Shown: positions 1-28,480 of the stretch, in pieces
Numbering within the stretch: the stretch's first letter is position 1
Layout of the letters: each line of letters starts with the position of its first letter
NCBI GenBank assembly: GCA_963575745.1
Contig: CAUYUJ010005036.1
Location: 62,001 to 126,000, forward strand
Direction of reading: 5' to 3'
DNA length: 64,000 nucleotides
DNA from: Prorocentrum cordatum
Lineage: Eukaryota; Sar; Dinophyceae; Prorocentrales; Prorocentraceae
The notes under the pieces: generated by a model
What the model was told of the DNA's origin: nothing
Seen by the model: the letters and a program-made list of their open reading frames with translations, nothing else
Databases searched by the model: none
Program-made: the position numbers and the translations under genes

Positions 1-41
1 GGAGGAGGAGGGAGGAGGAGGAGGAGGAGGAGGAGGAGGAG
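1..41. repeat. (GGA)n tract at left edge
   Basis: Near-pure GGA trinucleotide repeat. The same repeat on the same strand lies at the SL end of the LINE block (7926-8000), so the 7.9-kb block is bounded by GGA on both sides. GGA tracts are common in this window, so this may mean nothing. Confidence 0.9.
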
Positions 42-1662
42 CGAGCGTCCATGAAGAAGGTCAAGGTCAGCCCCGCCTAGGGCCGCTGAGCGCGCGGAGC
101 CCCTCAGGCTCACGCTGTAGAAGTCCAGGGCGTCGTCGGCGGGGTCGACGGAGGAGAAGGCGTTGTCGAACGTGTTGACGACCGATGAGGTGTGACCAGG
201 AGCAGCGCCAGAATCAGCATGTGCAGCACCACCAGACCCGACATCCTCCACGTCCGACGGGTCGAAGTCGGGGAAGGCCGCAGGAGGGGAGGGCAACGAG
301 ACCACCCCGATAGCGTCCAGCGCCGCAGGGTCGAAGGGCGTGTAGTCGGGGAAGGCACCATCACCTCTGGCGGAAGTGCCATCTTGATCATCTTCAAGAG
401 AGGGTGGAGCGTGATGCGCGTGCTCGGGCACAGGAAGAGGAACACGAACAGGGTCAGCTGGCCGTTCGTCATGTACGACGACGAGGGGGTCAGGGTGAAG
501 CAGCATCCCCCGAATCATCTCACGGCTAGACTCATGTAGAACAGGGTAGAGAATGTCCAAGGCCCTCAACGCGTATTCGATCTGCTGGTTGGAGATCTTG
601 TCGTGCTGCGAGACAGCGTCAGCCGACTCAGGTGCCCCCTCAGAGGCCGCGCATGGTGAAGACGCGGAGGATGCTGGGGATGTCGGGCGCGGGTCAATAC
701 CTTGGCTTATCATCTCAAGAGCCAGTTGGAGAGCCAGTTGGAGAGCCAGCGAGGTGTGCGACAAAAGGCCAGTCACTCCCCTCATCACGTCCACATGCGC
801 GCACTTGTTCTTCATCTGGGAGTCAGTCTCAAGGGCAGGAAGAGCTCCAGGAGCACGCATACTGCGTGGTGGTCGGACTTCAGCGCGGCCGTCCCCATCC
901 GCATGATGAGCGTGTTCTGGCGAAGGAGAGGCAGGTGGTAGGCGGTCCACAGGTGGAGCACCCAGTTCTTGAAGGCCAGGGAGATCTTCAGGATCCGCAT
1001 CATGAGCAGGGAGAGGATGGCCCCCAGGCGGAGGTACCAGGGCAGGAGGAACGGCTCGATCAGGTCGAAGGCCTCTCACAGAGCTGTCAGGATAGATAAC
1101 GCCGAGCCCGTGCGAAGCAGTCGCCGCACTAGCATTGCAATCAGCACTCGCAGGCCCACCCGCCACACTGCTAGAGCTCTGCGTCGTGAGAACAGGGGGA
1201 ACCATAGGTCGAGGGGCATCACCTGAGGACCCAGCGGCAGGGTCGTGAGGTAGGCCCTCGTCGGCGTCGTCTCGAGAGCGACGCAGGACACGAAGAAGCA
1301 TTCTTTCACATTCATCATCGCTGAGTTGTGACCCTGGATGTGGTGGACCATCATCACGCATGGCGTTGCCCACCTCCCGATTTGACGATAGATCGCCGAT
1401 GCCTTCGCTCTCCACCATGAGGACAAGATCCAGGTCGGTGGGGTTCGGGACACCCTCGTGGTCGATGCTGGCGTTATCTTCATCAGGTGGCGGTTCGCCC
1501 GGAGCGTGAGCCTCGAACGTCAAGTCGATGAGTAGGTGCGGCAGGACGTAGAGGTGCGGCATGAGCGCAGGAGAGGCGAGCGGGGGGGCCACGGCGATCT
1601 GCGCGAGGTAGTCATTACGGTTGGCAGCTGACATGCGTGACGGGTCGGCGCGCCATCCAAGT

Positions 1663-1705
<43 letters not shown>

Positions 1706-3296
1706 AAAAAATGTATGTCCTTCTTCTCTTCAGGTGCGCCATGGCTAGCAAGCCGAGCCGACGAAAATGTTTGTCATCATGCACAGGCCAGGGTGCGATG
1801 AGCAGCTGTCGTAGTTGTTCACGAGCAATAGCACTATGGTACCAACCACTGAGACACCAGTCGTTCACCAGCTGCCGCCTGCTCGCTGAGTCGCTGCAGA
1901 GGCTTTGAAACACATCATACCTGAGAACATTCTCCACATACCCAGGGCACCATTGCATCCGTTGCTCAAAGTCAGAGCCGCACATGTTCACCATCAGCGC
2001 GGGGAACCACGAGCGAGCCCACGCAACAATTCTGTCCTCAAGCGCCTGACTGTAAGCAGCGATAGGAAGGCCAGTCTCCTCTGCTGGCGGGACGAAGGAT
2101 TCAAAGAGCGCAGGAAGATCCACCTCAGGAAGAGCAGACGTAGATGGCGTGTCGGAACCAGCCTCCAACTCTTGCCCAGCAAGGAGGTTGTGTGGTACAG
2201 TAGAAGTCCCACGGCGCACATTCATTTCTCGCCATGATATTGCCGAAGGAGAAGGAGTGCTCGTCGCAGTCGAAGATGAAGTGCTGGCAGTTGCCCCATA
2301 GGCGACAGCCGCAGGCTGAAAGAGACAGCCCAGGGCAACGGCGGTCATAGGCGGTAAATCAATAGAGATCCCAGCTTGGGCCGTGACACTCTGCGGGCGT
2401 ATCGTGAAGCAAACCGGCGATGAAGAACAACGGGGAACGGGACGCCACGCTTCTTCCTTTGGGATCACCTCTTCAGTTTGTTTCCCACCCATCAGAAAGC
2501 CAGAGCCAATACTGTCACGATAACAAGCGAGTGTCACCCCCAGGTCGTGCGCTTCCGAAGTAAGGGCAGCCGACGACAGCGCTGATGCAAGGCAACAGGG
2601 GGGAGACAAGGACGATCTCGGTAAAGAGCCCGATGAAGGCGAGTTCTCAGCAAGAGCAAAAGCACCTTCAATGACTTCGATAGTCGGTGTTGGTGGTGAA
2701 GGACGGGGTATGTCGCTCGATGGTGGTGCGGAAGATCCAGAAGAGGACGAGGAAGACGAAGACGATGAGAAAGAAGGACCTGTTGAGCTGATTATCTTGC
2801 CAGAGCGCGCGCTCCCAGCACACCTTGTCCCCAGGGGTGCTCTCGATGGCGCAGTAGCTCCTAGCTGCGCAGTGCGAATAGCTGCCTTGACGAAGGAGCG
2901 CGCTGCCTCCCGCCTCCACACGTGAGCGACTGACGAGTGTGCTGCACAAATATATGTGTAGTACATCACCACGACGTCAAGGACGATCTTCTCCAATTCA
3001 ACAGCCGAGCCCATGAGCCCCAGACGACCCAGCGGCGAGGAGAGCCGTGAGTAACCAAGCTCCTGCTCCATAAGGCGACGAAGTGGTCGGCACTGCAAGT
3101 AGTGATGGGCAGCATCAGGTTCGCGCGTGCAATCAAATCGGCACGAGAGACGCCCGTGTGGCTGTAGTATTATGTGCGAGGTCGCCCATCCATTGGCAAC
3201 CGTCTTGAGGTAAGCGAAGGCCCAATGGAAGAGAGCATCCGCGAAGATATTGGAACATGTGAACCCGCCGTTGCGCAGGATCAAGAAAGCCGCCAA
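1..3296 (-). CDS. Stop-free minus-strand frame, 3.3 kb, partial (runs off left edge)
   Basis: I read this frame triplet by triplet from 3296 down to base 1 and found no stop codon, about 1,098 codons; the first in-frame stop lies just upstream at 3297-3299. At this base composition dozens of stops would be expected, so it is probably translated or was recently. The upstream end (about 3150-2880) is the LINE C-terminus with a zinc-knuckle-like Cys-x3-Cys...His-His-Tyr-Leu-x-Cys. The next kilobase looks like an ordinary protein (for example around 2100-1760, with Trp/Cys-rich segments), then a TA tract read as Ile-Tyr repeats, then a Met-initiated stretch at 1634, then acidic and Pro-rich sequence. 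I recognise no family. It could be a LINE-host chimeric ORF, or host exons plus introns that happen to keep one frame open. Confidence 0.45.
404..2859 (-). other. Exon-like segments in other frames, predicted membrane protein
   Basis: Several short stretches with strong C/G third positions read as membrane-protein segments, mostly in frames different from the 3.3-kb stop-free frame. They are 2719-2859 (a Phe/Leu/Val-rich helix between charged flanks), 2551-2646 (hydrophobic, ending Gly-Cys-Pro-Tyr-Phe), 2222-2307 (Cys-rich, loop-like), 1506-1634 (same frame as the long ORF), 1223-1300, 827-1072 (about 82 residues with two or three hydrophobic helices) and 404-472. The spacing and a pyrimidine-rich AG just before 2646 fit exons of a host multi-pass membrane protein split by short introns. 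The family is not recognised; an ion channel or transporter is only a guess. Confidence 0.35.
1662..1710. repeat. (TA)n microsatellite flanked by T7 and A7
   Basis: About 17 TA dinucleotides between short T and A runs. It interrupts the long minus-strand frame without breaking it, read there as alternating Ile and Tyr. It is one of the few AT-rich islands in this GC-rich DNA. Confidence 0.9.
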
Positions 3297-4060
3297 TCAC
3301 CCCCATCTCAGGGAAGCGGTTGATGAGACGAGCCTCCAGGAAGGTCCACAGCGGAAGGGGGCAGATGCGTGTCTTGATCATCTTGGTGACGCAGCTTTGC
3401 AAGCCCATCGACGTGGTCGGTAATGCTTGCCATCGATCAGCTTCTGCACTGGCAGAGGCCAGGTGTGCCTGCGGGTAGTCAGGGAAGACGTTGGAGGCAG
3501 AGCAGTCTCGTACTCTGGCCAGCGTTTCGACAAAGGCTTCATATTGCCAGAAGTGTGGATACGGCCGCCCACCGCCAGTAAGAGCTTGAGAAAGCACACG
3601 AAGGTCGCCTAGCTGCTGATGTTGGCGATACATCCAATCATGTAGTCTTTGAAACTCAGGGGGCGTAGTGCGCGAGGTCCTGACCAGGGCCCCAATGCTC
3701 ATGGCGAGCCACGAAGGCACCGATGGACCACCAGCGCTTCGAAGTTGGAGCCAAGCAGAACTGCTGAAGGTGCCGAGAGGGATCCTGAACGTCCTGGACA
3801 GGGCCACCAGCTCTTCACGGATAAGCCAGCTGGGCATCATGCGAAACTGCGCGACGTACGAGAGCACGGGAGTAACTCTCGTGGTGTAGTTGGCTGCGAG
3901 CCACGAGACCGCAAGCGGGCTCGTGCCTACCAATCTCGATCTCAACGTAACGTTGATAGATGGCGCCAGCCAGCATGGGCTCTCATCTGCAGCAGGGCCC
4001 AGGACGAGACCGAAGTAAGTAAGAGAGCTAACCACCTGAACATTGGCAAAGAATAGTACC
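3040..4060 (-). pseudogene. LINE C-terminal region with zinc knuckle
   Basis: After the RT the signal moves to the frame open at 3133-4134. It has the post-RT Tyr-Phe-Gly-Leu-Val-Leu-Gly-Pro motif, a Tyr-x-x-Arg-Val-x-Pro-Val-Leu-Ser-Tyr-Val-Ala-Gln segment, and Glu/Leu-rich helices typical of LINE C-termini. Near 3150 it shifts into the stop-free frame and reads Cys-Arg-Phe-Asp-Cys...His-His-Tyr-Leu-Gln-Cys, a zinc-knuckle-like motif common at the end of such polyproteins. Confidence 0.75.
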
Positions 4061-4942
4061 ATGTCACGTATCGATACATGCATGGAGGCAGCCATCCCTC
4101 CGTGAACTTGGCGTGGGGCGGCACCAGCAGGCACTTGGTGAGCTTGAGCACAAGCGTGGCAATCCTCTCCGCTGTCTGCATCACGTCAGCAAGGATGCGA
4201 AGTGCCCACAGCTGCTTGACGACGCAGCCAATATCATCAACGCAGGCCCGAGCAAGGCCAAGCCTTGGGCCCTCCATCCGCGATTGAAGGTCGAAGAGAA
4301 AGCAAGCCGTCACTGCCGCGTATATCGACCCGCTGGGTGAGCATCCTCGAATGATACCAGATGGGATGCGCCACGCAAGTGTAGGAAGCCCATTCTTCAT
4401 AACGATAGCGTCAAGGATCTGATAAAGCTGTTCCAATATAGCCATGAACGCATAGGGGGCCTGCATTTGCTGAATGACCATCAACATAATTGACTGCGCC
4501 AGACCCGGGAAGGCCGCGCCGAAGTCCAATGCGACCAGGGCAGGAAGATCCGCGCTTGCCGTTGAGGGGTTAGAGCACGCGCGGGCTGCAACGTCGAGCT
4601 CGAGGACGTTGGCACCAAAGTTCATCTTGGGGATGAAGCCCCTCTGGGATCGGGGTGCCCAACCCATAAGCAACTTGCTGAACTGAATGTTGACAGTGGC
4701 GGTGGTAACCTTGATGTCCGTGTTCCGCAAGCCCAGCAAACGTACCGCCCCAGGGGGGCGAGTGCACCCAGTGGCCAGAGAGTCTTCAATCTTCTTCCAT
4801 TGGGAAGCCAGACCTGCAGCGTGTCATTAGAGCTTTTGAAAAGGGGTTGTCCCTGCATAATCCATATCATAGCGTCCGAAAGCACATTGATCCCAGCGAC
4901 AGCAGCTGCCCAAGCCGAGTAAGGGATGGAGTCCAGCCCAGG
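3942..4942 (-). pseudogene. LINE reverse transcriptase domain, frameshifted
   Basis: Motifs in order: Leu-Pro-Asn-Gly-Arg-Arg near 4800, Arg-Asn-Thr-Asp-Ile-Lys near 4720, Gln-Arg-Gly-Phe-Ile-Pro near 4640, the catalytic Ala-Leu-Asp-Phe-Gly-Ala-Ala-Phe (motif A) near 4525, Ile-Arg-Gly-Cys-Ser-Pro-Ser-Gly (motif B, with Arg where Gln is usual) near 4350, and Val-Asp-Asp-Ile-Gly (motif C) at about 4230-4241. The two Asp of motif C and the Asp of motif A are intact. The domain is split over two frames, with the change near 4750. Confidence 0.9.
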
Positions 4943-5611
4943 CTATGAGTAGTGCATCTCGTTAGCTACGCGCCGCAGGAGGGCGGGTGATGGCGGCTCA
5001 ACCGTGGAGAAGTCCAATAGCGGAACATGTTGTTCGATGTAAGCTTGTGCCAGACCGAGGTCGATCGGCTTGGCCTTAAAGATGGGGGCCCAGTGCTCGA
5101 TCAGGCGGTCTGTCATGGTCGCAGAGTCGCTGGAAATGCAAGTCGGGTCAGACGGGTGCTTCGCCGCCCACAGTACCAGCCGGCGGTTGAGAGGAGACCA
5201 GGAGCCCGAGCGCCGCTCCACTGCAGCAAGCTGATGGCGCAGAGCCTGCGGAGCACGAGGTCGGGCCAGACGCTCCTCAAGTCGAGAGCGAAGCTGATCA
5301 GCATGTCGGCGCTGTATCTCATCACACCAGCGTTGGAAAGAGGCGTGATGGCGTAGACGGACCATGTTGTACTACATGTCTAAGAAGTCGTAGGCCGCCG
5401 TATGGTTGGTCATCAACTTGCGGGCCAGAATGTGGTCATTCCGCCAGACCACCCTCGAGATTTGTCGAGCAAGTACCAGGGGCGTCGCATTGGCCTCTGG
5501 CGCCTTGTGAAAGAGCCGATCACGAAGGTCAGCAGCTACCTCCCGCATGGCCCACTTGTGATTTTCGATCTGACGAGGGGGCTTTTGTCCGCATAGTTGA
5601 GTTCGTCGCAC
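4943..5611 (-). pseudogene. LINE linker between endonuclease and reverse transcriptase
   Basis: One frame with an internal TAG at 5372-5374. It is rich in Arg, Leu and Ala and contains a His-Trp-Ala-Pro-Ile-Phe motif near 5100, a recurrent feature just before the RT domain in LINE polyproteins. It ends at a stop at 4943-4945, where another frame shift carries the coding signal (Leu-Asp-Ser-Ile-Pro-Tyr-Ser-Ala-Trp) into the RT. Confidence 0.65.
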
Positions 5612-6544
5612 GCCGCCTTGAGCTGCTTTTGAAGTTCATCACTCTCGAACAGGTGCCGTGGGATACGATGGGCCTGAGCAGGCCGAAGAGATCGCTGCGT
5701 GAACTTCACCACGTGTGCCGCATGATCGCTGACATTGGCCTCAGCGAGGTGCTCAGGACAATCAATGACCCCAGGTTCCGCCGCGAGGTGGGTCATAATC
5801 CACCCGGGCCAACTGCGCCAAAGCCTGTCCAACATAGAAACGGAGTGAGAGTGGCGATCGTAGTGTGTCGGCTCGTCCGAGGAGATTTCCATCATGGTCT
5901 TGAGCACCGGATTCCAGCGGGCAGCTCTGGCGCGTTGTCCTTTGCCCTGGGCTAGACGACGGTGGGGCTGGTGAAGGAGAAGAGGAGCGCGTGGAGCAAC
6001 ATTGAGATCACCATGAAGTATGACAACATAGCGAAGCGGATCACGTTGAGCCGCTTTGAGGTCAGCAGCCAAAACTTTCGACACTCCATTGATCTGGGCA
6101 ATGGTCAAGTAGTGGTTGTGTACATTGTAGCGGAAAACAAAGGAACCGCCCGGACGTAGGACTACTCGTAGCACTCTGCCAGGGACTAATGATCGCTGAG
6201 AGACCTCCGCACGGCATTCAGCAGGCAGGATCGTAGCAACACCTCCCCGCACAGCAGACCCCTCGAAGTAGCTGGTGTAGATCCTGGCGCGCGGCGCAAC
6301 TTTAGACAGAAAGTATGTGAGCTGCTTCTTGTCCTGGTGAACCTCCTGGATAGCAACAACACCACATGTGAAGTCCAACTTCTTGAGGTGAGCAAGCTTC
6401 GGTCGAGCAGCATGTCCATGATATTGAAGAAGGGCACGGGCATTCCACGATGTGAAAGCAAACGACGGGGGACACGCCAATCGTCCATGAATAGCTGCAG
6501 CAAGTCCACTAAAGAGACCACTCTGCCGCTTCAGGTGGAGAGAT
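5536..6544 (-). pseudogene. LINE APE-type endonuclease domain
   Basis: Endonuclease/exonuclease/phosphatase fold of non-LTR elements, which nicks target DNA to prime reverse transcription. Visible motifs in order: Ser-Trp-Asn-Ala-Arg-Ala-Leu near 6450, Ala-Ile-Gln-Glu-Val-His near 6355, Gly-Gly-Val-Ala, Gly-Asp-Leu-Asn-Val-Ala near 6010, and Val-Ser-Asp-His near 5730. The catalytic Asn, Glu, Asp/Asn and Asp-His residues are all present. The open frame extends far upstream of the domain, but there it is out of frame with the ORF1 signal. Past about 5580 the true coding continues in another frame, so this frame stops early at 5536. Confidence 0.85.
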
Positions 6545-7753
6545 GATGCATTTGACAGCCTCCGCCAGCTGGTCCTTCGGGAGCGCCAGCTTCTGGACAA
6601 TGTTGTCGGCCCAGGCGATCTCCGAGGGGGTGTTCCCAGGATTGGGAGAGAGGCGGAGCACAGGGCCCCACCCCGCCATGAGGTAGCCCCTGTCGCGGTC
6701 GAAGAACCACCTCTTATCAGGGGCAACATTCTTGAAGGCCTCCCTGAGCTTGCGGCCCTGGATCTCCAGCTTGATTTGACGGGGGTTCTTGTCAGCACCG
6801 ATGTGGAGGGTCGCCATCTGCTTGTCCATGGCCATGACTTCGAATCGCTTCCATTGACCAGGAGCGAGCCGCTGAGCACCATGGACCTGAGAGACACGGC
6901 GTGCGGCAGGCCCGGCCGCCCCAGATAATTGGATCGTGAACTGCTTGGCGACCTGCTCGCTGGAGGAGATCGTGAAGAACTCGGCCTTAATTCCGCAGCT
7001 GACGATCCAGTCCGGCATGATTTGCTGCACAGCAGACAAGTCCACCAGCTTGGACGCCATGATGCGAATGATCGTTGCGTCGGTATCCCTGTCGAAGCCT
7101 GCAGCGCTGGCAAGAGGAGGTTTGGGCTGGACGCTGGCGATCGCGATTGCGGCACGGAGTTCTTGAATTTGTTATCGAAAAGTCTGAAGTTCAGAGTCGT
7201 GTCCATCCAGCCTGCTCTCCACCGCGCGGAGACGCACAGAGTGGCCGTCCAGCTGTTCCTGGAACTTGCGGTAGAAGGCATCCAGCTTCTCGGAACAAAA
7301 TTGTTCGGATGCTTGCTTGGCCATCGCTGGAAGTTGTTGTACTCCCTCTGCAAGCTTCCCAGCAGCACGAGAATGCTCAGTAAGCTGAGCAGCAAAGTCC
7401 TGGATCTGGTCGGAGACCGTCGCAGAGACAACCTTGGTGATGTCTCTGATGAGCTCGTCCCTGTGTCCGGCCATCTCTTTGGAGACATAGTCTCCTGCAA
7501 GCTGCTTGATGGAATCGTCTTTTGTCCACTCGTCCTCGCTGTTGATGTCTTCATCATCATCATCATCCCCCGCAGCAGGGGCCGCAGTGGAAGAAGCACC
7601 CGTAGTAGGATGGATAGGAGTGTCTGAGCCAGCAGCCAGCTCATCGCCTTCATCAACGACAGCAGCACCGTAAGCCTGAACTCGGCGAGCCTTCTCGATC
7701 TTCCTCTTGGGGCCGCGGACGGCCTGGAGTCCACCATTGCGGTCGCCGCCCAT
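6509..7753 (-). pseudogene. LINE ORF1-like region, one in-frame stop
   Basis: It starts at the ATG at 7753 and stays in one frame to 6509. It begins basic, then an Asp/Glu-rich tract (about residues 62-78), then a long helical, coiled-coil-like segment (about 85-190). An in-frame TAA at 7172-7174 interrupts it, but the same frame continues with conserved-looking sequence, including an aromatic/basic stretch near 6700 (Lys-Arg-Trp-Phe-Phe-Asp-Arg-Asp-Arg-Gly-Tyr). An RNA-binding or nucleocapsid role is known for ORF1 proteins in general; here it is inferred from position. The frame ends just where the endonuclease frame takes over, so a frameshift or overlap joins them. Confidence 0.7.
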
Positions 7754-7908
7754 GAATGACTCTGAGCGTTCGAGAGGGCAGGAACGGGAACCACCTCCGT
7801 TTACCCACCAACTCGAGCGCAGGTGTGGAGAAAAGCACTGCCAGACCCCAAGGGTCTTGCTCGCCGCGGACTAGCGGTATCCACATGTTCCCCCGAGGAA
7901 CATTGCAT

Positions 7909-7930
7909 CTTGAGCCAAAATGGCTACGGA
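7909..7930 (-). other. Dinoflagellate spliced-leader sequence (genomic copy) at LINE 5' end
   Basis: On the minus strand this reads T-CCGTAGCCATTTTGG-CTCAAG, matching the known 22-nt dinoflagellate SL at every position (the first base may be A, G or T). It abuts the GGA tract on its outer side and the LINE leader on its inner side. SL is added to mRNAs by trans-splicing, so its presence in DNA means the LINE end was copied from a trans-spliced RNA. An ATG follows the SL directly, out of frame with ORF1. Confidence 0.95.
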
Positions 7931-8146
7931 GGAGGAGGAGGAGGAGGATGGGGGAGGAGGAAGAGGAGGAGGGAGAGGAGGAGGAGGAGCAGGAGGAGGA
8001 NNNNNNNNNNNNNNNNNNNNNNNNNNNNNNNNNNNNNNNNNNNNNNNNNNNNNNNNNNNNNNNNNNNNNNNNNNNNNNNNNNNNNNNNNNNNNNNNNNNN
8101 CCTCCTCCTCCTCCTCCTCCTCCTCCTCCTCCTCCTCCTCCTCCTC
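7921..8146. repeat. (GGA)n, 100-N assembly gap, (CCT)n
   Basis: GGA repeats run into 100 Ns (8001-8100) and emerge as CCT repeats, the reverse complement. The gap size is a placeholder. The strand switch means either a true inverted junction or two contigs joined at a low-complexity end in doubtful orientation. Confidence 0.95.
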
Positions 8147-9285: not shown

Positions 9286-10775
9286 TGAGGCAGGCTGATG
9301 CTGAGGCTGAGGTGGCTGAGGCGGCTAAGGCTGAGGCCGAAGTGAAGGCAGACTCACGCTGAGGGCTGATGCAGGCCTGAGGCTGAGGCTGAAGCGGGTC
9401 GAGGCTGATGAGAGGAGCAGAACCAGCTGAGGTGAGGCTGAGCTGACTAGGCTGAGGTGAGGCAGGTGAGACTGAAAGCGAGGGCTGAAAGGCAGATTGA
9501 GGCCTGAGGCTGAAGGCAGGCGAGGCTGAGGCTGAGGACTTGAGCAGGCTGAGGCTGGAGGCTGAGGCAGGCTGATGCTGAGCAGGCGAGGATGAGGGCT
9601 GATGCTGGCTGAGCTGAGGCAGGCCGAGGCCGAAGGCCGAGGCTGAAGGCAGACTGAGCCTGAGGCTGAAGCAGGCTGCGGCTGAGGCCGAGGCAGACTG
9701 AGGCTGAGGCTGAGTCAGGCTGATGCTGTGGCAGGCTGCGGCTGAGGCTGAGGCTGATGCAGGCTGAGGCTGAGGCAGGCTGAGGCTGAGGCCGAGGCTG
9801 AAGGCAGACTGAGGCTGAGGCTGAAGCATGCTGAGGCTGAGGCTGAGGCTGAGCCTGAGGCAGGCTGAGGCTGAGGCTGAGGTGATGCAGGCCCGAGGTT
9901 TGGCAGCCTGAGCTGAGGCGAACGAAGAGGCTGAGGCAGGCTAGAGGCTGAGGCGAGGGCTGAGGCTGAGGCTGATGCAGGCTCGAGGCTGAGGCAGGCT
10001 GAGGCTGAGGCCGAGGCTGAAGGCAGACTGAGGCTGAGGCTGAAGCAGGCTGAGGCTGAGGCTGAGGCAGGCTGAGGCTGAGGCTGAGGCTGATGGCAGG
10101 CTGGCTGATGCTGAGGCAGGCTGAGGCTGAGGCTGAGGCTGATGCAGGCTGAGGCTGAAGCAGGCTGATGGCTGAGGCCGAGGCTGAAGGCAGACTGAGG
10201 CTGAGGCTGAAGCAGGCTGAGGCTGAGGCTGAGGCAGGCTGAGGCTGAGGCTGAGGCAGGCTGATGCTGAGGCAGGCTGAGGCTGAGGCTGAGGCTGATG
10301 CAGGCTGAGGCTGAGGCTGAGGCTGAGGCTGAGGCCGAGGCTGAAGGCAGACTGAGGCTGAGGCTGAAGCAGGCTGAGGCTGAGGCTGAGGCAGGCTGAG
10401 GCTGAGGCTGAGGCAGGCTGAGGCTGAGGCTGAGGCTGATGCAGGCTGAGGCTGAGGCAGGCTGAGGCTGAGGCCGAGGCTGAAGGCAGACTGAGGCTGA
10501 GGCTGAAGCAGGCTGAGGCTGAGGCTGAGGCAGGCTGAGGCTGAGGCTGAGGCAGGCTGAGGCAGGCTGAGGCTGAGGCTGAGGCAGGCTGATGGCAGCT
10601 GAGGCTGAGGCTGAGGCTGATGCAGGCTGAGGCTGAGGCAGGCTGAGGCTGAGGCCGAGGCTGAAGGCAGACTGAGAGGCTGAGGCTGAAGCAGGCTGAG
10701 GCTGAGGCTGAGGCAGGCTGAGCTGAGGCTGAGGCTGAGGCTGAGGCAGGCTGAGGCTGAGGCTGACTGCTAATG
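9286..10775. repeat. GGCTGA hexamer array with higher-order structure
   Basis: 1.5 kb of GGCTGA with variants. A longer period is marked by GCCGAGGCTGAAGGCAGACT recurring at about 9791, 10010, 10177, 10334, 10473 and 10654, giving a higher-order unit of 140-220 bp. Frames rich in Ser-Leu-Ser and Gln-Pro are translations of the repeat. Confidence 0.95.
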
Positions 10776-26623: not shown

Positions 26624-26640
26624 TCCGCATTGGGCTGGGC
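26624..26640 (+). repeat. Left target-site duplication of retrogene
   Basis: TCCGCATTGGGCTGGGC, identical to 27753-27769. The first bases of the SL overlap its end, so the exact boundary is uncertain by one to three bases. Confidence 0.88.
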
Positions 26641-26660
26641 CGTAGCCATTTTGGCTCAAG
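26639..26660 (+). other. Dinoflagellate spliced-leader relic at retrogene 5' end
   Basis: Reads G-CCGTAGCCATTTTGG-CTCAAG, a full match to the 22-nt SL. It lies between the left target-site duplication and a 28-nt leader before the ATG at 26689. It marks the 5' end of a mature trans-spliced mRNA that was copied into DNA. Confidence 0.97.
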
Positions 26661-26688
26661 GCAACGCCCAAAGAGTTTTCTGTCGCCA

Positions 26689-27735
26689 ATGACGACTGGT
26701 CAGTGCGACTTCCCAGCGAGTAGGGCATCCGTTATGTTCAGTGTTGTGGCTTACGGTACTTGTTCGAGTTTAGCAATCGTGACGAATAAGGTGGCCATCC
26801 ATCGCGTTCCATTGCCAGGCTCAATTTTCTGTTTGCAGTTGGCTGCGACAGTGAGTTTTATTGTCGCCCTGCGCTCCTCCAGACTGATTGAAGTTGACGC
26901 GGTGACCTGGAGTGCCGTCAAGACTTTCATCCCGTACGTCTGTTCGTTCAACCTCTCGCTGTATTCCAACGGGAGGGCCCTGGCTGCCTCGAACGTCGAA
27001 ACCGTGATTGTCTTTCGCGCCCTGTCGCCGCTGTGCGTGAGCGTGTTGGACTGGATGCTCTTGGGCAGAGAGTTGCCCTCGATGCAGTCGTGGCTGGTCC
27101 TGTTGGGCTTGGTCGTGGGCGTCATCGGCTACGTCAGTGCCGACAGCGAGTTCGGCGTGATGGGGATCTCGGCATACAAGTGGGTCTGTTTGAACCTTGC
27201 CGGCATCGTCTTCGAAATGACGTACGGTAAAAAGCTTATCGCAGGAGTGCAGTTCAAGTCCCCTGTCTGGGGCGCGACCTTCTACACGAACGCGCTCGCG
27301 CTACTACCCATGCTAGCTACTGCCATCTCTACTGGAGAGGTAGACAGGGTCACGAGCACGGAGATTGATCTCGTGTCCGCTTGCTGGCTCGTCGTTTCGT
27401 GCATAATAGGCTTGGGCATCAGCTGGTCAGGGTGGAACTGCCGGTCAAAGGTGTCGGCCACGGCCTACACGTTGTTGGGGGTCGTGTGCAAGTTGGTCAG
27501 CGTCCTCCTGAACGTCTTGATCTGGGACAAGCACGCATCGCCGAAGGGCCTGTTCTTTCTGCTGGTTTGCCTCGCCTGCAGTGCGGCTTATAAGCAGGCG
27601 CCGCTGTGGAAGGAGGTGAGCGCGACGCCGCCTGTGGAGGCCGGGGAGGAGGAGGCGATCGGCTGTGGGTGTGAAGTTGCGTGCGGGGCAGAGGAGGACG
27701 GCCTGTCGGTCAGAGGAGGGCGAATATCACGATGA
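26689..27735 (+). CDS. Nucleotide-sugar transporter-like protein (DMT superfamily), SL retrogene
   Basis: 348-residue multi-pass membrane protein, about ten hydrophobic helices, full family length. Members of this family exchange nucleotide sugars for nucleoside monophosphates across Golgi/ER membranes; the substrate here is not determinable. Supporting motifs: Ile-Val-Thr-Asn-Lys-Val-Ala near residue 30, Val-Ile-Val-Phe-Arg-Ala-Leu-Ser-Pro-Leu near 104, Glu-Met-Thr-Tyr-Gly-Lys-Lys near 180, and Lys-Val-Ser-Ala-Thr-Ala-Tyr-Thr-Leu-Leu-Gly near 253. The usual Asn-Lys after that Gly reads Cys-Lys. The ATG at 26689 is the first after the SL; a second Met lies 15 codons in. There is no intron and no break. 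Bounded by SL, A-tract and target-site duplications, it is a processed retrogene. Transcription would need a promoter at the landing site. Confidence 0.9.
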   Translation: MTTGQCDFPASRASVMFSVVAYGTCSSLAIVTNKVAIHRVPLPGSIFCLQLAATVSFIVALRSSRLIEVDAVTWSAVKTFIPYVCSFNLSLYSNGRALAASNVETVIVFRALSPLCVSVLDWMLLGRELPSMQSWLVLLGLVVGVIGYVSADSEFGVMGISAYKWVCLNLAGIVFEMTYGKKLIAGVQFKSPVWGATFYTNALALLPMLATAISTGEVDRVTSTEIDLVSACWLVVSCIIGLGISWSGWNCRSKVSATAYTLLGVVCKLVSVLLNVLIWDKHASPKGLFFLLVCLACSAAYKQAPLWKEVSATPPVEAGEEEAIGCGCEVACGAEEDGLSVRGGRISR

Positions 27736-27741
27736 TGCGTG

Positions 27742-27752
27742 AAAAAAACAAA
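27742..27752 (+). other. Poly(A) remnant of retrogene
   Basis: AAAAAAACAAA, only six bases after the stop codon and directly before the right target-site duplication. Either the mRNA had an extremely short 3' UTR or reverse transcription primed near the stop. Confidence 0.8.
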
Positions 27753-27769
27753 TCCGCATTGGGCTGGGC
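27753..27769 (+). repeat. Right target-site duplication of retrogene
   Basis: Exact copy of 26624-26640. Joining the two sides restores continuous minisatellite (TTCTTGGAG before, CTCTTGGGGGCC after), which defines the empty site. Confidence 0.88.
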
Positions 27770-28480
27770 CTCTTGGGGGCCTTCGGGGGCTTCTTGGGGG
27801 TTCCTTCGGCCGTCTTCCGGCGTTCCTGGCCCGTCTGTTGCCGTCGGGAGCGGTCTTGGGAGCCTCTCTAGGCCGTCTTGAGGCCCTGTTGTGGCGCTCC
27901 AGGGTCGTCTTAAAGGCCATCCTGGGCGTCTTGGAGGCCGACTTTCGGCCCTCTTGAGGCCGTCTTGGGGGCCTCTTGGGTCGTCCTGGGGCCATATTGA
28001 AGCTTCTTGGGCGCTTTTGGGTCGATCATAGTGGCCTCTTGGGCCGTCTTGGAGAGTCGGACGCCTGAAACAGAGGAGAAGCCACCATCCTTCAACTACC
28101 TAAGGACAATCGATGATTTGTGCCTCTTCGGGCCTTCTTGTGGATCCTCTTGGAGGCCTCTTGGACATCGCTTGGGACGTCTTGGCGGGCTCTTGGCCAT
28201 CTTGAGGTCATGTTTGGTCCATCTCGGGTCCTTCTTGGGCCATCTGGGCCTCTCGCGAAACCATTTGGCCGTCTTGGGGGCATGCTGGGACCGTTTTGGA
28301 GGCCATGTTGAGCTAATTTGGCCGTCTTGGAGGCATCTTGGATGCCATCTTGGAACCATCTGGAGCGGAACAATTCTTGCCAGCTGGGTAAGGATGAGCT
28401 ATCCAAGTGGCTGGTGCGCTGGGCCGAAGCTCCGGGGAGAGCTAGAGAGAACCAAAAGAGCACAAGACGTCTAGCACGCC
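27770..28480. repeat. Minisatellite block, plus orientation
   Basis: Continuation of the field into which the retrogene landed. A spacer near 28100 reads CAATCGATGATTTG, a variant of the recurring palindrome. Confidence 0.9.

Follow-up and report, generated by a model that had tools for sequence, protein, structure and literature searches.

Spliced leader at the 5' end of a LINE

How does a complete exon of the host's spliced leader (SL) come to stand at the 5' end of a LINE retrotransposon, and does it belong to the element or to a chance neighbor? The locus lies in a stretch of 64,000 nucleotides of Prorocentrum cordatum (contig CAUYUJ010005036.1, positions 62,001 to 126,000), the whole of which is called the window here. 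The 21-nt core of the DinoSL, CCGTAGCCATTTTGGCTCAAG, occurs exactly at two sites in the window, 7909-7929 on the minus strand and 26640-26660 on the plus strand, and shows no match in 100 shuffles. At the first site, a T at 7930 completes the 22 nt of the exon. An earlier note on this DNA had placed an SL on the minus strand directly 5' of the LINE and touching a GGA tract, and the exact match over all 22 nt bears this out.

The LINE spans about 42-7930 of the minus strand and is decayed, with several frame changes and stops (Table 1). Its alignment with a second copy, L012, begins at the leader, reaches window position 1, and shows about 91% identity. The same note had described a LINE with ORF1-like, endonuclease, and reverse transcriptase domains; the assignment to the LINEs stands, since relatives pass the Pfam cutoffs, while the endonuclease and reverse transcriptase scores of the decayed window copy are weak. 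The three relatives of ORF1, with 83%, 85%, and 39% identity, are all annotated as Prorocentrum cordatum. The four motifs listed for the endonuclease region are taken here to be those of an APE-type endonuclease. An AlphaFold model of the endonuclease piece reached a mean pLDDT of 32 and was set aside. The reverse transcriptase segment shows no Pfam match up to an E value of 10, and two EukProt proteins are 79 to 81% identical to it over 53% and 44% of the query. These two proteins, P0001 and P0002, come from a set named Pyramimonas sp., perhaps through dinoflagellate contamination; if they derive from transcripts, these LINEs are transcribed. Nothing informative was returned by scans of viral contigs with the reverse transcriptase and ORF1 pieces or by a protein search with the C-terminal piece, and self-comparison of the window shows no direct repeat of the element's ends and thus no LTRs. 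The TA run, tried as a candidate for the 3' end of the LINE, was rejected because the alignment with L012 shows it to be an insertion; it has the palindromic form of a T-run, (TA)n, and an A-run.

Table 1. Features of the window LINE and its flanking repeats, from 5' to 3' of the element
Feature	Position in window	Strand	Remarks
TCC-rich target tract (sense strand), 5' of the element	7931..8000	-	Runs up to a 100-N gap
Complete DinoSL exon, 22 nt	7909..7930	-	5' terminus of the LINE; same junction in 39/39 other copies
5' UTR, 155 nt	7754..7908	-	Predicted hairpins
ORF1, 414 codons	6512..7753	-	One in-frame TAA at 7172-7174
APE-type endonuclease region	5620..6501	-	PF03372 E 0.0016, below cutoff; SWNA, IQEVH, HGDLNVA, SDH
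Reverse transcriptase segment	3945..4823	-	Human L1 ORF2p E 0.03; two EukProt proteins
C-terminal ORF2 region	1729..3296	-	Aligns with L012; no Pfam match
(TA)n insertion, 61 bp	1668..1728	-	Missing from full-length copy L012
3' part of the element, ending ...GGACGCTCG	42..1667	-	91% identity with L012 as far as the TCC tract
(TCC)n tract adjoining the 3' end	1..41	-	Alignment with L012

A scaffold gap of 100 N at 8001-8100 has the GGA tract on one side and, on the same strand, a CCT tract on the other; the sequence to the right of the gap may therefore not be the true neighbor of the element. A long array of degenerate GAGGCT-like tandem repeats, recognized by eye, occupies 9300-10770 beside the LINE. 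A search of RNA families with window positions 7600-8000 returned no known family and no ribozyme family at the 5' end, the sole match being a chance-level lncRNA (E value of 2.4) over the TCC tract, the leader, and the start of the UTR. The leader and UTR folded as a single strand give a z score of -1.44, which is not exceptional, and the 5' module shows weak covariation, at 5 of its 23 predicted pairs. Four loci (L122, L124, L126, and L127) form a 5'-end subgroup with the first hairpin GGTTCC...GGAACC, a possible paired change compared with the other copies.

The leader in other copies

The genome was searched with the UTR 3' of the leader only; leader and flank were left out of the query, so the matches are not selected for either. 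When 40 of 424 candidates were scored, all 39 copies other than the window's own proved to have the leader at the junction seen in the window, and not one of these copies reaches 5' of the junction without it. The leader is exact in 19 copies and carries one mismatch in 8, two in 11, and three in 1 (L056, with a 2-bp insertion). The sequence behind it is the element's own UTR, to which it is directly joined in 37 copies; GT follows the leader in 5 of the 39. In the remaining two, a relic lies between leader and UTR: C14070 (L032) shows the leader followed by CCATTTTGGCTCAAG and C17322 (L063) the leader followed by GCTCAAA. The 5' flanks are of 35 distinct kinds, one being common to L039-L042 and another to L054 and L055, and the 39 copies probably represent about 35 independent insertions. 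A query composed of flank, leader, and UTR start found the leader in 18 further long and 19 further short loci. All of these observations come from one assembly of one genome, a draft in which the assembly of TCC tracts may be imperfect.

These counts bear out the suggestion of the earlier note that the leader is the general 5' end of the LINE copies, and they answer its question about single and tandem leaders: a single leader is the rule, and a leader with a relic occurs in 2/39. They also decide on the explanation that the leader belongs to an unrelated mRNA retro-inserted beside the LINE, for which the note had named full-length copies lacking the SL as the telling observation. The window does hold a second leader of that kind, at the head of a retrogene (see below). 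The LINE, however, has no visible poly(A) run in the stretch from its leader to ORF1, and the recurrence of the leader at one junction in all 39 copies refutes an unrelated neighbor, which leaves this explanation with practically no probability. Chimera formation by a template switch, in which the reverse transcriptase passes from LINE RNA to SL RNA, is very improbable as well. LINE reverse transcriptases can switch templates, as in U6-L1 chimeras; against such an origin, it is always the exon of 21 to 22 nt that is found, joined at the same base.

Families sharing the 5' end

The elements with this 5' end fall into several families: family A (the window copy, L012, and L014), family B (L015, L016, L022, L024, L026, L029, and L031), family C (L018-L021, L027, and L030), and family D (L017 and L025), with L013, L023, and L028 standing beside them. 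The first ~50 nt of the UTR are common to all element groups seen, and up to ~150 nt are common to families A to C. Families B and C are about 80 to 91% alike over the first 400 to 580 bp, compared with about 62 to 69% over much of the rest, and by BLAST, what families A and D have in common is limited to the leader and some 50 nt of UTR.

The LINE-type reverse transcriptase and the apurinic endonuclease expected of an APE-type LINE are both found through relatives, the reverse transcriptase of the window copy itself reaching only an E value of 0.03. RVT_1 exceeds its cutoff in L015 (family B) and in L018 and L019 (family C), and PF03372 scores 27.8 bits in L019, compared with a cutoff of 24.5. 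The best PDB matches, with E values of 5.8e-9 and 1.1e-8, include human L1 ORF2p. The frames given for L016 and L024 match neither RVT_1 nor PF03372, and those given for L018 do not match PF03372. A reverse transcriptase profile built on the L015 and L019 sequences recognized 16 of 20 long loci; L017, L023, L025, and L028 have the 5' end in common with the others and show no match to this profile, and L025 shows no Pfam match. Membership of family D in the LINEs is based on the common ends and on endonuclease-like and RNase H-like stretches judged by eye. The LINE families regarded as secure are therefore A to C, and further elements have the same 5' end. The copies are dispersed, lack LTRs, and have a common 3' end.

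Insertion into TCC tracts

Apart from L044, every copy (38 of 39) has at least four TCC units within the 40 nt 5' of its leader, compared with 2.4% of 20,000 random 40-mers from the window. In 22 of 39, TCCT forms the end of the flank and is in register with the CC of the leader. The 3' ends run into TCC repeats in 24 of 29 copies, 16 of them placed by alignment and 8 by an end motif. Among the 21 long loci, the window included, 17 ends were placed: 9 by pairwise alignment (the window, L012, L016, L017, L019, L024, L025, L029, and L030) and 8 as the first TCC tract behind the common ..CGCT.. motif, a partly circular procedure (L013, L015, L020, L021, L022, L026, L027, and L031). For 7 of 8 further unselected copies, the alignment with the window extends into the TCC tract; the eighth, L103, shows no 3' end where one is expected and joins L014 and L018 (both with N gaps), L023, and L028 as the copies without a placement. 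The tandem-bearing copy on C14070 (L102) shows the usual 3' end. In L028, positions 380-560 show a head-to-tail arrangement in which the apparent 3' end of one element is followed by a short TCC tract and then by the next leader.

The same repeat thus borders the elements on both sides and in one orientation, as in LINEs specific for a microsatellite target. With TCC on both sides, any target duplication would be hidden within the repeat. The 3' ends read lack a visible poly(A), and the LINEs do not show the combination of poly(A) remnant and target-site duplication by which DinoSL retrogenes are recognized. They were not found inserted in SL RNA genes either, as LINEs targeting SL exons are, 38 of the 39 flanks being TCC. 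With a leader on every copy examined and TCC tracts as sites, this LINE group appears to borrow the front end of host RNAs as its own.

Probable renewal of the leader

Variation in the leader was compared on a tree of the more distal UTR. The 33 unselected copies used were the window, L012, L014, and 30 refetched loci out of 33, from which L069 and L096, with tandems, and L089, with an indel, had been dropped; four flank-sharing loci were left out. The leader shows 20 minor alleles and 20 changes on the tree, and none of the 20 is inherited. Inherited variants amount to 23 of 52 in UTR positions 1-21 and to 238 of 463 in the distal UTR, compared with only 1 of 20 in UTR 22-42. Mantel tests against the tree agree, with an r of -0.13 (p 0.82) for leader distances, -0.01 (p 0.50) for UTR 22-42, and 0.38 (p 0.001) for UTR 1-21. 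Because UTR 22-42 is almost equally without inherited variants, renewal of the leader at each cycle is likely on these sequences, not proven; the same pattern would be expected of a templated leader kept constant by selection.

Such a templated leader, captured once and now acting as a start site or a mimic from which transcription begins with no trans-splicing per cycle, is an unlikely explanation. The equal invariance of a 21-nt UTR block in the leader's neighborhood speaks for it, and for the PCP gene of Amphidinium carterae, the available part of the source leaves open whether splicing or initiation occurs at a genomic leader (PMC2488372). It accounts less well for the identity of the sequence with the host leader across several element families and for the leader-relic tandems in 2/39, of which new trans-splicing onto the RNA of a leader-bearing copy would be the simplest origin. 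Leader relics, a truncated one included, are known from re-trans-spliced retrogenes, as far as the available text of PMC12014239 goes; the C14070 relic has the form known from retrogenes, and that of C17322 resembles the truncated relic of this source. Trans-splicing would then be the source of the LINE leader, which may supply the element with a cap and translation signals.

Proposed cycle

LINEs normally must bring their own promoter and 5' end. For the group described here, the explanation considered probable is an APE-type LINE group in Prorocentrum cordatum that takes its 5' end from the host SL exon and has (TCC)n as its insertion target. A LINE copy would be transcribed by read-through or from the conserved 5' module, and its pre-mRNA would be trans-spliced like a host mRNA, usually, it is supposed, at the terminal AG of the copied leader (CTCAAG|). 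Use of this acceptor would regenerate exactly one leader, and splicing at an internal GTAG or after TTTTG would give the two tandems observed. The leader-bearing RNA would be translated and then undergo target-primed reverse transcription at the TCC/GGA tract, where the first bases of the leader, (T)CC, agree with the repeat unit of the target and may assist in joining the 5' end. The TCC tract could also act as a pyrimidine tract for the acceptor; this is only a guess, since the acceptors of A. carterae show no simple consensus beyond AG in the available part of PMC2488372. Points that count against the proposed explanation are the missing TCC tract of L044, the scoring of 40 of 424 candidates, the 1/20 of UTR 22-42, the partly circular placement of 8 of the 24 3' ends, and the lack of a reverse transcriptase match in L017, L023, L025, and L028.

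A more far-reaching version, in which the leader is obligatory and self-renewing, the TCC site provides both the pyrimidine tract and the (T)CC joint, and the presence of the module in several families reflects a successful strategy, is put forward tentatively and is more doubtful than probable. Host RNA processing appears to provide the 5' end of the LINE in either version, which would tie its mobility to trans-splicing and mark full-length insertions by host sequence. How the RNAs of dinoflagellate LINEs are made and capped becomes a directly testable question.

Relation to known systems

CZAR is a LINE that inserts into spliced-leader exons. SLACS and NeSL likewise bring a LINE and a spliced leader into contact; there, by the available text of PMC4640811, the leader gene is the target, whereas in the present group (TCC)n is the target and the leader forms the 5' end of the element itself. 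Togen elements insert into a simple repeat as well, although (TG)n is a different one, and they are related to NeSL and not APE-type; the part of the same source that covers them mentions no leader. DinoSL retrogenes share the genomic 5' leader derived from trans-spliced RNA and the tandem relics, as described in the accessible portions of PMC12014239 and PMC6050394, but they are host genes, in contrast to a LINE group in which all sampled 5' ends carry the leader, with TCC tracts and without poly(A). The Pr77 module of the trypanosomatid L1Tc/ingi elements is a short 5' module common to several families, as here; it acts as promoter and ribozyme on unspliced transcripts according to the part of PMC8190864 available, whereas the window 5' end matched no ribozyme family.

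Retrotransposon RNAs that receive a leader are also known. In Hydra, trans-spliced transcripts make up 30.9% and 29.7% of the TE Iso-Seq reads of two strains; those leaders are shown in RNA, and the accessible text of PMC12220107 reports none at genomic 5' ends, in contrast to the LINE leaders, which are known from genomic copies. The mRNA of Cer1 from Caenorhabditis elegans receives a leader on its short spliced form only and not on the 8-kb RNA, as stated in the available part of PMC3315495. LINEs with a genomic spliced-leader 5' end were not found described in the literature searched, mostly outside subscription journals and in part as partial texts. A dinoflagellate RNA virus with a leader is a near case.

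Other leader-bearing sequences

The second leader of the window, at 26640-26660 on the plus strand, heads an uninterrupted transporter ORF of 348 codons (TPT/EamA-like; TPT with an E value of 2.9e-6 and 27.3 bits, below the cutoff of 30). The ORF is followed by an A-rich run and by the second copy of an 18-bp direct repeat, TCCGCATTGGGCTGGGCC, which lies at 26624-26641 and 27753-27770; the last two bases of the copy at 26624-26641 overlap the CC of the leader. With this A-rich remnant and target duplication, 26624-27770 looks like an ordinary processed, SL-tagged retrogene, a class known from dinoflagellates in the available parts of PMC12014239 and PMC6050394. Leader-tagged insertions of two kinds thus occur in one genome: LINEs that target TCC and lack an A tail, and the retrocopy of an mRNA, which has both an A-rich tail and a target duplication.

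Exact DinoSL sequences were also encountered elsewhere. L002 (32-52) and L003 (4334-4354) belong to contigs filed under Dehalococcoidia MAGs, perhaps through contamination. L001, an AT-rich, virus-like contig of 22% GC, carries two on the minus strand, at 2746-2766 and 2893-2913, 147 bp apart. The second leader precedes an ORF of 49% GC, which may reflect retroposition of a host mRNA into a large DNA virus.
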